In this document: positions 23,254 to 32,851 of the stretch, piece after piece
Layout of the letters: each line of letters begins with the position of its first letter
Position numbering within the stretch: position 1 is the first letter of the stretch
Source of the DNA: Pseudobdellovibrionaceae bacterium
GTDB lineage: Bacteria; Bdellovibrionota; Bdellovibrionia; Bdellovibrionales; JAMPXM01
NCBI GenBank assembly: GCA_023701225.1
Contig: JAMPXM010000005.1
Span: 1-33,701, forward strand
Direction: 5' to 3'
Length of the DNA stretch: 33,701 nt
Position numbers and translations under genes: made by a program
Notes under the pieces: model-generated
The model's input: the letters and a program-made list of their open reading frames with translations, nothing else
Databases searched by the model: none
Told to the model about the DNA's origin: nothing

Positions 23254-23949
23254 CTAACTTGCCTTGGCGGGCACCTGTGAAAGCAGGCGCTCGGCGGTAT
23301 CGGAGGGCGACACAGGTCGGGACATCGTCCGCATCATCAATTGCTTGCGGACGGCCGGATCGATATCGATGCGTGCGTCGCGGATGCGGGTGACGATTTC
23401 ACGCGTGTTGTCATTGGCCAGGTCGGGTCGGAGCTCAGCCATCAGATTTTCCAAAATATAGACGTAAGTCGCCTGTGCTTTGGCCGAGCGTTTGGCTTTG
23501 AGCGCGTCGATGGATTCTTGTGCGAGGTCGCGCAAGACAACGTCGAGGGAATTCAGGTCCACCAATTCCCTGCGTACGAGCGAATACAGCGATGAGCGTG
23601 TCCCGTCCCGGTCGGGTCGGGCCAAGGCGATGCGCATGGCGTCTTTGAGGGCCTCCAAAGTTTCCAGTTCGACGACGACACTATCTGCTTCGGCGTCATC
23701 GACTTGCGAGGCTTGCACGTTGCCGGCTTTTTGAATCCGAGCGTTGATCAGCTCGTTCACTTGGTCGGAGTTCTTCATCATCAATTGAGTGGAGTCGAAT
23801 TCCAGTTTCGGTTCGCCCGTGGTGATCGCCGTGCTGGTTCGCGGTTGCCACTGCGTCTCTTGCGACTTGGGGGAGGTGGTGCAGCCGGAGAGGGCGAGCG
23901 CGAGAACGGCGAAAGGAATCGTCAATTGGCATCGAATACGCTGTGTCAT
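23254..23949 (-). CDS. Lipoprotein of unknown function, helical
   Basis: A 231-aa lipoprotein with signal peptide MTQRIRCQLTIPFAVLALALSGC (lipobox LSGC, C23). The mature part is helix-rich: TLEALKDAMRIAL, SSLYSLVRRELVDLNSLDVVLRDLAQESIDALKAKR, TYVYILENLMAELRPDL and a C-terminal DPAVRKQLMMRTMSRPVSP. This pattern resembles TPR/HEAT-like superhelices without a recognised family. I used ATG 23949; the longer frame upstream is the mirror image of the DsbA gene. No ribosome site precedes the ATG, but a TATACT hexamer does, so the mRNA may be leaderless. It is divergent from the DsbA-like lipoprotein, which may share its control region. Confidence 0.83.
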   Translation of the reverse strand: MTQRIRCQLTIPFAVLALALSGCTTSPKSQETQWQPRTSTAITTGEPKLEFDSTQLMMKNSDQVNELINARIQKAGNVQASQVDDAEADSVVVELETLEALKDAMRIALARPDRDGTRSSLYSLVRRELVDLNSLDVVLRDLAQESIDALKAKRSAKAQATYVYILENLMAELRPDLANDNTREIVTRIRDARIDIDPAVRKQLMMRTMSRPVSPSDTAERLLSQVPAKAS

Positions 23950-23957
23950 ATGCGACG

Positions 23958-23963
23958 AGTATA
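23958..23963 (-). promoter_or_regulatory. -10 element just upstream of the 23949 start
   Basis: TATACT on the minus strand ends 8 nt before the ATG, with no usable Shine-Dalgarno between. The -35 is poor. It predicts a leader of 0-2 nt. Confidence 0.45.
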
Positions 23964-24072
23964 CCCTCTCCATCGGCCGAGCTGGAGTTTTTTTGCTTTC
24001 TCGACTTTTAAGAGATATGGCAGACTGTGTTCTCTCGATCATCGTCCTGATGAACTTCATGTGGAGGATTCT

Positions 24073-24873
24073 TTGAAACGAGTCATGTTGCCTTTCGTTT
24101 ATATGTTCGTCGGAGTGTTGGCGTTCGTGGTCATGGCCGGATGCGCGCCTTCCGCTTCGCAAATGCAAAAGGTTCTTGAGGACAATCCCGAAGTTCTCTT
24201 CTCGGTGATTGAAAAGCATCCGGACAAGTTCTTCCAGACCGTGCAGAAAGCACAGATGCAAATGCGCCAGGGCGAAGAAGAGCGCATGATGAAGGAAGAA
24301 GGCGAGAAGCGCGAAGAAGAATTCAAGAGTCCGAAGGTTCCGGCGATCGCCGACGACCGCGCGTACGAAGGTGAAAAGAGCGCTCCGGTCACGATCGTCG
24401 AATACTCGGATTTCGAATGCCCATTCTGCCGCAAGGGCCACCTGACGATGGATCAGATCCTGAAGGAATATCCCGGAAAAGTGAAAGTCGTCTTCAAAAA
24501 CTTGCCGATCGAGCGCATCCATCCTCACGCCTTGATCGCATCCAAGTATTACGAGGCGGTCGCGCTTCAGGACATCAAGAAAGCGGCGGCCTTTAAGAAG
24601 GAAGTCTTCGAGAACCAGCGTGAGTTCACGGACGCGGGCGAGAAGTTTCTGAAAGACGCGGCGAAAAAAGTGGGCGCGAACGTGGCGAAGGTTCAAGCCG
24701 ACATCAACTCGGAAGCCGTCACGAAGCGTATCGACGAGGACCGCGCCGAAGCCGAAAAATTCGAGTTTAGCGGCACGCCCGGTTATTTGATCAACGGCGT
24801 TTCCTTGCGTGGGGCGTATCCGGCGGAAGAATTCAAAAAGATCATCGACCGCCACCTGCAAGCCAAGAAATAA
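24073..24873 (+). CDS. DsbA-family thiol oxidoreductase lipoprotein
   Basis: A 266-aa lipoprotein. TTG 24073 has GGAGG 5 nt upstream and gives signal peptide and lipobox VMAGC (C24). Residues 30-90 are a charged, helical spacer (MQKVLEDNPEVLFSVIEKHPDKFFQ... QMRQGEEERMMKEEGEKREEE) that can hold the enzyme off the membrane. The thioredoxin-fold domain has the active site C116-P-F-C119 (DFECPFCRKG) with the helical insert and the cis-Pro loop SGTPGYLI. CPFC resembles DsbA/DsbG-like oxidases and the NhaA-linked thioredoxins. It would form or isomerise disulfides in exported proteins. The C-terminal AKK* lies at the start of a 12-bp repeat array in which the stop codon is part of the unit. A strong terminator follows. 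Confidence 0.9.
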   Translation: MKRVMLPFVYMFVGVLAFVVMAGCAPSASQMQKVLEDNPEVLFSVIEKHPDKFFQTVQKAQMQMRQGEEERMMKEEGEKREEEFKSPKVPAIADDRAYEGEKSAPVTIVEYSDFECPFCRKGHLTMDQILKEYPGKVKVVFKNLPIERIHPHALIASKYYEAVALQDIKKAAAFKKEVFENQREFTDAGEKFLKDAAKKVGANVAKVQADINSEAVTKRIDEDRAEAEKFEFSGTPGYLINGVSLRGAYPAEEFKKIIDRHLQAKK

Positions 24874-30707: not shown

Positions 30708-31499
30708 ATGAGAACACTTTATTGTCTTCTAGTTGTCATGATGGCGCTCCCCGCGATGGGCGCGACCGATATGTATCCTTGTTTTAAAAATGTTGCGGAA
30801 GTCCTCGATCGCTCCGAACCGGCGAGCGGTTGGACGTTTGATACGACAGAGAATTTGCTTCGCGCGGGATCGAGCGTCTCGGGCGTGAACTACGAACTCA
30901 GGCGTTCGGAAAAGGTAGCCGAGTTGCGGCGCGTGTCTCCGACCGGTGACCGCTCTTATAAATTCGAAATCCCGCATTGTTATACGGAATTTCGCATGGA
31001 GCGCGGCACCCCAGCGACAGCTCAAGCGAAAGGCCAAGAGGCCGCCACGATCGCCGATGGTTGGACCGACCAAGATTTGTCGCAGCTATTGAAAACGTCG
31101 GCGAAGAACGGACGCCGTGGATTCATCTATGTCTGGTCGCCGAATATGCCGCTCGCTCTACGCGGCTTCCCGGAGGCGCAGAAAATCGCGAAGTCTTTGA
31201 ATTTGGATTTCATCGCGGTCCGCGATCCTCACAGCAGCGCCAAATTCGCGCAGATGATCGTGACCAAGCGTGGGTTTCCGAAGTCGGCGATGCGTCCGTT
31301 GGATTCATCGGAAGTGATCGCAACCGGCGCGATCAATCACTTTCCGGCGATCGTATTGTTCGAAGAAGGTCGTCTGCATTCGCGGGCTCGCCCAGGTTAT
31401 GATGAGGCGCCGCGCCTGCGTGCACTCTTGGAGCAGTCTTATATGACTGGGCCGGTTGAGCGAATTCGTCTGCCGTCGGGAAAGGGCAAAAATCAATGA
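30708..31499 (+). CDS. Exported thioredoxin-like protein without active-site cysteines
   Basis: A 263-aa periplasmic protein. The ATG at 30708 starts a signal peptide (MRTLYCLLVVMMALPAMGA); the earlier frame has none. After an N-terminal region of about 110 residues with two Cys (MYPC, IPHC), residues 125-245 follow a thioredoxin fold: GRRGFIYVWSPNMPLALRGFPEAQKIAKSL lines up with F-x-x-W-C-x-x-C, but the cysteines are replaced (SPNM), and NHFPAIVLFEEGRLHSRARPGYDE fits the cis-Pro strand. It would bind rather than oxidise or reduce thiols. It overlaps the following propeller-cytochrome gene by ATGA, so they are made together. I know no named family for this pair. Confidence 0.72.
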   Translation: MRTLYCLLVVMMALPAMGATDMYPCFKNVAEVLDRSEPASGWTFDTTENLLRAGSSVSGVNYELRRSEKVAELRRVSPTGDRSYKFEIPHCYTEFRMERGTPATAQAKGQEAATIADGWTDQDLSQLLKTSAKNGRRGFIYVWSPNMPLALRGFPEAQKIAKSLNLDFIAVRDPHSSAKFAQMIVTKRGFPKSAMRPLDSSEVIATGAINHFPAIVLFEEGRLHSRARPGYDEAPRLRALLEQSYMTGPVERIRLPSGKGKNQ

Positions 31500-32851
31500 C
31501 AACGTGGATTGGCTTTATCGCATCTTTACTCGCGGTTTCCCCGGCGTTCGCTCAAAGCAATAACAATGCATGCGTAGGCAAAGAACCGGCCGTGATCCGC
31601 GAAGTTCCTTTCAAGGGACAGCCGAGCTTTTTCTTTCGTGCGTTCCCGGCCGAAGATATGGTGTCGTTCGCATCCAGTGAGAGTCGAAACCGGATTTTCG
31701 ATTTGCGCACCGGGGAAGAAGTGGAAATACCTGGCAGCTATGATCCCGTACCGCTTTGGAACGAGCGTTACATGGTCGTGCCGATCAGCGATGGCGGAGC
31801 GACGCGGATGGAATTCTTCGCGATGAACGATCTGCGCAAGTCCAAGCGAAACACGAAACCCGTTCGTCGCAATGAGTTGGAAGGGACCTATCAGTCGGTC
31901 GGCTCCTTGCCATCGATCGACGGGGTGGAAGTCTATCGGATCATTACAGCATATTTGGGGGTTTCGTCGCGCGATTATAAAGTACGCGATGGAAAAAGTG
32001 GCGAGGCTGCGATCGAGCCGATCGGGGATCCGGTTCTGCTCTGCAAAGGTTATGACTTGAAGTTGCCGATGCTATCAAAAAATGGAACTGAATTGGCCGC
32101 GCTAGATGCGAGGACCAACACGACCAAGATTTTCGGCGTCGATCCAGCGACAAATATGTGCGTGGAAAAGCTCGATTTGGGTGTGCAGACCGGTAAAGTG
32201 GATTTCAGTTTCGATGGTCGCTTCTTGGCCTATCACGTTTCCAAAGTCGACGTCGGTGGTAGCTTTTTCTCGCGGCCGGACAAGAGTTGGTCCATGCAGG
32301 TCCACGTCTATGATCGAGTCAAACGGCGTGTGCATGTGCTCTCGGCCGATATGGCGCGCAATTCCTATTTTCCGGTATTCCGACAGGATGGGACAATCGT
32401 ATTTCTCCGCTCGGATAAGAGCGGAGAAAACTATGTCTTCGCGGTCGCCGATCTGAAAAAGGCCGGCATCATCGATGCCGAAGGCGGCGCTTACGAAAGC
32501 GAAAAGAAAGTTCGTGCTCCGGTGCGCGCAAAGGAAATGCTCGATGCGGTGGCGTGCCGGTCCATGGATGCGAGCCCCGAAGAGATCCGTCGGAGCCTGC
32601 TCAGTTATCGCTCCGTCATCGAACGCAAGTGCCAGTACTGCCATGCGGACCCTTCGATTGGGATCGATTTCTTCAACGTTTCGGCTTTGAAGGCAGCAAA
32701 GCCGAAACGCACACCCGCGGCCGCGAATATGCTTCAGGCCATCGGGATGCGCTTGCGCGGGACAGACGGCGTCGTGCGCATGCCACTCGAGGGGCAGATT
32801 TCGGAAGAAGAAGTACAAGTGGTTCTGCAAGAACTCGGAATCGTGAAATAG
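31496..32851 (+). CDS. Exported propeller-like protein with C-terminal cytochrome c domain
   Basis: A 451-aa periplasmic protein. ATG 31496 overlaps the previous stop (ATGA) and begins a signal peptide ending near AFA-Q. Residues 40-330 consist of repeating strands with motifs such as MVSFASSESRNRIFDLRTGEEV, KVDFSFDGRFLAYHVSKVD and YFPVFRQDGTIVFLRSDKSGE, the TolB/WD-like beta-propeller pattern. Residues 360-451 carry one class-I heme c site, C379-Q-Y-C382-H383, with M429 in VRMPLEG as the likely second axial ligand. Such fusions can couple heme redox to a partner. The substrate or redox partner is unknown. It is convergent with ExbD. Confidence 0.85.
   Translation: MTTWIGFIASLLAVSPAFAQSNNNACVGKEPAVIREVPFKGQPSFFFRAFPAEDMVSFASSESRNRIFDLRTGEEVEIPGSYDPVPLWNERYMVVPISDGGATRMEFFAMNDLRKSKRNTKPVRRNELEGTYQSVGSLPSIDGVEVYRIITAYLGVSSRDYKVRDGKSGEAAIEPIGDPVLLCKGYDLKLPMLSKNGTELAALDARTNTTKIFGVDPATNMCVEKLDLGVQTGKVDFSFDGRFLAYHVSKVDVGGSFFSRPDKSWSMQVHVYDRVKRRVHVLSADMARNSYFPVFRQDGTIVFLRSDKSGENYVFAVADLKKAGIIDAEGGAYESEKKVRAPVRAKEMLDAVACRSMDASPEEIRRSLLSYRSVIERKCQYCHADPSIGIDFFNVSALKAAKPKRTPAAANMLQAIGMRLRGTDGVVRMPLEGQISEEEVQVVLQELGIVK

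Follow-up and report, generated by a model that had tools for sequence, protein, structure and literature searches.

An exported two-gene family of Bdellovibrionota that pairs a cysteine-less thioredoxin fold with a β-propeller, and a possible docking role for the former active site

Two overlapping genes within a 33,701-nucleotide stretch of DNA from a Pseudobdellovibrionaceae bacterium (contig JAMPXM010000005.1, hereafter the window) encode an exported two-protein family that is real and conserved, and of which the searched libraries and papers contain no description. The products of gene 1 (t, thioredoxin-fold) and gene 2 (p, propeller) would form a stable two-subunit periplasmic complex, in which the thioredoxin-fold subunit performs no redox chemistry and its dead active-site face is docked permanently onto the propeller. 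In thioredoxins the face holding the CxxC also binds substrate peptides; in t this old face would now present a hydrophobic side chain, usually Met and in few cases Phe or Leu, together with a Ser and with a His adjacent to the cis-proline. An optional small cytochrome c tail may, in some lineages, add electron transfer or sensing to the same core. Judged by sequence patterns and by analogy, this explanation has about an even chance of being correct. The wider claim, namely that of a bacterial exported two-component family in which the thioredoxin active site has become an obligate propeller docking surface, a counterpart of phosducin-Gβ with a heme tail plugged in or out, is put forward tentatively and with somewhat less than even confidence. 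The family, which carries no name, occurs in roughly one in six of the Bdellovibrionota species genomes that were searched, and it offers a clear, testable design rule for the fate of a thioredoxin active site once redox chemistry has been dropped and one partner kept.

Both genes are located as the first-pass annotation had placed them, as an exported unit on the forward strand joined by an ATGA overlap (Table 1), and each product begins with a signal-peptide-like segment. The genes on either side, which from their translations we take to be GNAT/glyoxalase-like (upstream) and ExbD-like (downstream), lie on the opposite strand, and the pair therefore stands alone. Elsewhere in the window a long open frame (23704-24873) encodes a DsbA-like protein whose CPFC site is canonical; ordinary periplasmic thioredoxin-fold chemistry thus persists in this genome.

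Table 1. Features of the two-gene unit, in window coordinates; residue numbers refer to the respective gene product.
Feature	Position	Strand	Basis
Gene 1 (t), encoding a 263-aa exported protein with a Cys-less thioredoxin fold	30708..31499	+	AlphaFold2, PDB matches, homologues
N-terminal β-rich domain, about residues 24-97, with Cys 25 and Cys 91	30777..30998	+	sequence, alignment, model
Thioredoxin-fold domain, residues 118-247	31059..31448	+	AlphaFold2 model, PDB matches
W143-S144-P145-N146-M147-P148-L149-A150, the former active site, with Met at the Cys32 position and Ala at that of Cys35	31134..31157	+	alignment
H211-F212-P213, conserved His and cis-proline position	31338..31346	+	alignment
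ATGA overlap, gene 1 stop and gene 2 start	31496..31499	+	sequence
Gene 2 (p), exported β-propeller protein with C-terminal heme motif, 451 aa	31496..32851	+	sequence, relatives
Propeller core, about residues 27-330, PD40-like, with conserved Cys183 and Cys222	31574..32485	+	relatives' matches, alignment
CQYCH (residues 379-383), motif for one c-type heme, in an accessory domain	32630..32644	+	sequence
M429-P430, with the Met as candidate axial heme ligand	32780..32785	+	sequence; CxxCH...(R)MP pattern also in relatives

The AlphaFold2 model of the gene 1 product, calculated from an alignment of 11 rows, displays a pLDDT of about 90 for residues 121-246 with secondary structure elements in the order α-β-α-β-α-β-β-α, and thus contains the β-α-β-α-β-β-α core and the cis-proline that define the thioredoxin superfamily. 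Nearly all of the top Foldseek matches in the PDB are thioredoxin, TlpA, ResA or DsbF proteins, and structural alignment by VIA-align gives a best Z of 11.2 over residues 119-246. The only cysteines of the protein are residues 6, 25 and 91, none of which lies in the thioredoxin domain, and the CxxC of redox-active superfamily members is absent throughout the paired family. A thioredoxin-like fold devoid of C-x-x-C, as proposed in the first-pass annotation, which would have been refuted by a structure prediction lacking that fold, is thereby borne out. The N-terminal β-rich domain, for which no named family was found, is missing in several relatives; where it is present, Cys 25 and Cys 91 are conserved. 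It is also retained in the propeller-less clade described below.

Assignment of the gene 2 product as a PD40-like β-propeller is supported by its relatives, including the model predicted for a fused one, and is less firm than that of the thioredoxin fold. The product alone gives no PD40 match, while 5 of 18 relatives do so (best E 2.4e-4), placing the family as a whole among the PD40/TolB-type propellers; none of these 18 propeller members matches an NHL repeat. Most of the proteins that Foldseek matched to the fused relative's model are propellers, the model itself being of low confidence (mean pLDDT 61, at which the t-p interface cannot be read). Searched against PDB sequences, the propeller profile returned a single match under 0.001, to a ribosomal protein, which was taken as chance. 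Downstream of the propeller, the CQYCH motif and M429 together resemble a miniature cytochrome c, with Cytochrome_CBB3 scoring E 0.088, below the Pfam cut-off. Heme attachment is plausible since a Cytochrom_C_asm protein is encoded in the window's genome. In one related locus (L036:5750-6849) a frameshift or sequencing error divides the propeller gene into two overlapping frames, next to an intact t.

Profile searches of 369 Bdellovibrionota genomes, with thresholds of more than 42 bits for gene 1 and less than 1e-13 for gene 2, detected t in 63 genomes, p in 58 and both in 57, where about 10 would be expected by chance. The sole propeller without partner (genome G087) sits at a contig end. 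Single-sequence searches within the order found both genes adjoining, a search with a narrower alignment yielded 11 loci, and a single-protein scan of genome contigs returned no relative. In all 48 unfused loci examined the two genes are adjacent and on the same strand, t preceding p in 45 and following it in 3. Pairwise distances of t and p are correlated with a Mantel r of 0.57 (highest value under permutation 0.19), which is what co-inheritance would produce. No match over the curated cut-offs of Pfam or NCBIfam was obtained for either gene, and no publication describing the pair was found in the literature searched, most subscription journals lying outside its scope; within these libraries and this literature, the earlier suggestion that the pair is undescribed holds. 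Absence of the two genes as neighbours in other genomes, the second outcome that would have refuted the first-pass reading, did not occur. In an all-against-all comparison of neighbouring genes, further neighbours were conserved solely among near-identical loci, and a larger operon with further genes was accordingly rejected.

According to the tree, t and p have been fused, in the order t-p, in three lineages, represented by genomes G081 and G227 (both Bdellovibrionota) and by Comamonadaceae. The latter contribute four fused loci and an unfused relative, L094. These loci (L090-L094, from Polaromonas, Comamonadaceae and Variovorax), in which the pair is mostly fused, group with a Bdellovibrionota subgroup, which suggests horizontal transfer. 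One further locus (L041:3883-7197) has the arrangement p-t-p, with one thioredoxin-like gene between two diverged propeller genes, suggesting that a single t may be able to serve two propellers.

The fusions bear on the strongest alternative, in which t would be devoted to folding or assembling the propeller and would leave it after folding, as PhLP1 would for Gβ. The strict pairing and the usual translation of t before p are in line with such a role, and PMC8544692 discusses PhLP1 as a folding partner of Gβ and other seven-bladed WD40 propellers. However, three lineages tie t and p into one chain, an arrangement compatible with an intramolecular chaperone but one which disfavors a purely transient one. 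Altogether, a folding factor is regarded as unlikely.

In the former active site, alignment places W-S-P-x-M-x-x-S where thioredoxin has W-A-x-W-C-x-x-C, the slots Cys32 and Cys35 being named after E. coli thioredoxin by our own presumed mapping. Among 55 paired or fused t sequences, the Cys32 slot is occupied by Met in 49, Phe in 4, Leu in 1 and Thr in 1, and the Cys35 slot by Ser in 53 and Ala in 2, one of which is the window protein. The residue two positions before the cis-proline is His in 53 and Gln in 2, and the cis-proline position itself is Pro in 54 of the 55. The former CxxC site is thus under strong constraint. A degenerate motif (WTPHTPCA, HHS) occurs in L120, yet the propeller is present there, which counts against the docking explanation.

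In the thioredoxin fold the Cys32 slot and the residue near the cis-proline are close in space. The highly conserved Met and His are hence expected near each other and might bind a metal (copper) or a small ligand, the pair then being a metal- or ligand-handling module. Against this, Met is replaced in pairs by Phe (L049, L106, L107, L109) or Leu (L114), two of these five being fusions, and neither residue ligates metal; moreover, there is no metal-related gene among the conserved neighbours. A metal site is disfavored by these exchanges and is considered improbable, and because Met exchanges with Phe or Leu, a hydrophobic contact is favored over a metal ligand.

In genomes G224, G225, G229 and G230 t is present and p was not detected. 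Their t sequences form a supported clade, sister to the paired locus L089 and nested in a supported group of pairs, so that p was most likely lost in this clade. In these four genomes the P of the patch is changed to A/A/S/V, the M to E/E/E/N and the H to S/T/V/T, with D, L, I, Y, W, S, S, D, the cis-proline and G all unaltered. Since just these three positions of the patch changed in the clade without p and the fold-defining residues stayed, the simplest reading, resting on one clade and hence one event, makes P, M and H residues that serve the propeller partner. The clade thereby offers ready-made natural interface mutants. Two further propeller-less t, L100 (a very recent loss) and L112, retain the motif, which speaks against this reading.

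The nearest functional picture for the proposed complex is provided by phosducin and phosducin-like proteins, which are Cys-less thioredoxin-fold proteins binding the β-propeller of Gβ. As in the pair described here, a Cys-less thioredoxin fold meets a β-propeller, but phosducin-Gβ is eukaryotic and cytosolic, and in sequence no more than a profile match at chance level connects the two (phosducin-like protein 2, E 1.9). The TlpA/ResA/DsbF-type thioredoxins found among the best Foldseek matches share the fold and the periplasmic location of t, whereas they possess a CxxC and carry out thiol-disulfide exchange; t instead has M-x-x-S and the conserved His before the cis-proline.

In terms of architecture, the closest system, and a precedent for the proposed docking, is human NHLRC2, consisting of a Trx-like domain and a six-bladed NHL propeller, with reported prokaryotic homologues (PMC6107167). 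Its Trx-like domain lacks classical oxidoreductase activity, and its CCINC region is the part nearest the cup of the propeller, which it faces and to which it forms hydrogen bonds (PMC6107167). The order, Trx-like first and propeller second, and the non-oxidoreductase nature are common to both. NHLRC2, however, is one chain with retained cysteines (CCINC), NHL repeats and a C-terminal β domain, whereas the pair is as a rule encoded by two genes and exported, with M-x-x-S, a propeller that is probably PD40-like and an optional heme tail. The CC(I/V)NC that defines the NHLRC2 family (PMC6107167) is absent from the Trx domain of the pair in the alignment, and the pair is therefore not a member of that family. 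In PMC4597128, HP0231 and DsbI of Helicobacter are presented as a periplasmic Trx-fold protein and a partner with a propeller domain; unlike t, HP0231 is an active CxxC oxidoreductase, and its partner is a membrane DsbB-like protein.

With respect to the heme, a CxxCH is present in 18 of 54 propeller partners and missing from the other 36. At least 6 changes of state are required on the propeller tree, gain and loss not being separable, and the t partner with its Met/Ser/His motif is the same whether or not the propeller carries the heme motif. As judged from these sequences, the heme is accessory to the core and not the general point of the pair. The first-pass annotation had described a redox-dead thioredoxin fold encoded alongside a heme protein; the redox-dead fold and its pairing with a propeller stand, while the emphasis on heme does not. 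The reading in which t serves the cytochrome domain as its chaperone, as that annotation suggested, or as a redox adaptor could draw on the CxxCH of the window and of the 18 relatives as well as on the Cytochrom_C_asm protein noted above, but it cannot describe the general function, because t and its motif are unchanged in the two thirds of pairs without heme and the thioredoxin domain of most members has no Cys for thiol-disulfide work; a heme-centred general role is thus rejected, and this reading is considered very improbable. The accessory nature of the heme redirects the focus from redox chemistry to the protein-protein complex. In one relative (L089:1204-3180) the propeller partner bears CxxCH twice and is prolonged by a long additional stretch at its C-terminus.
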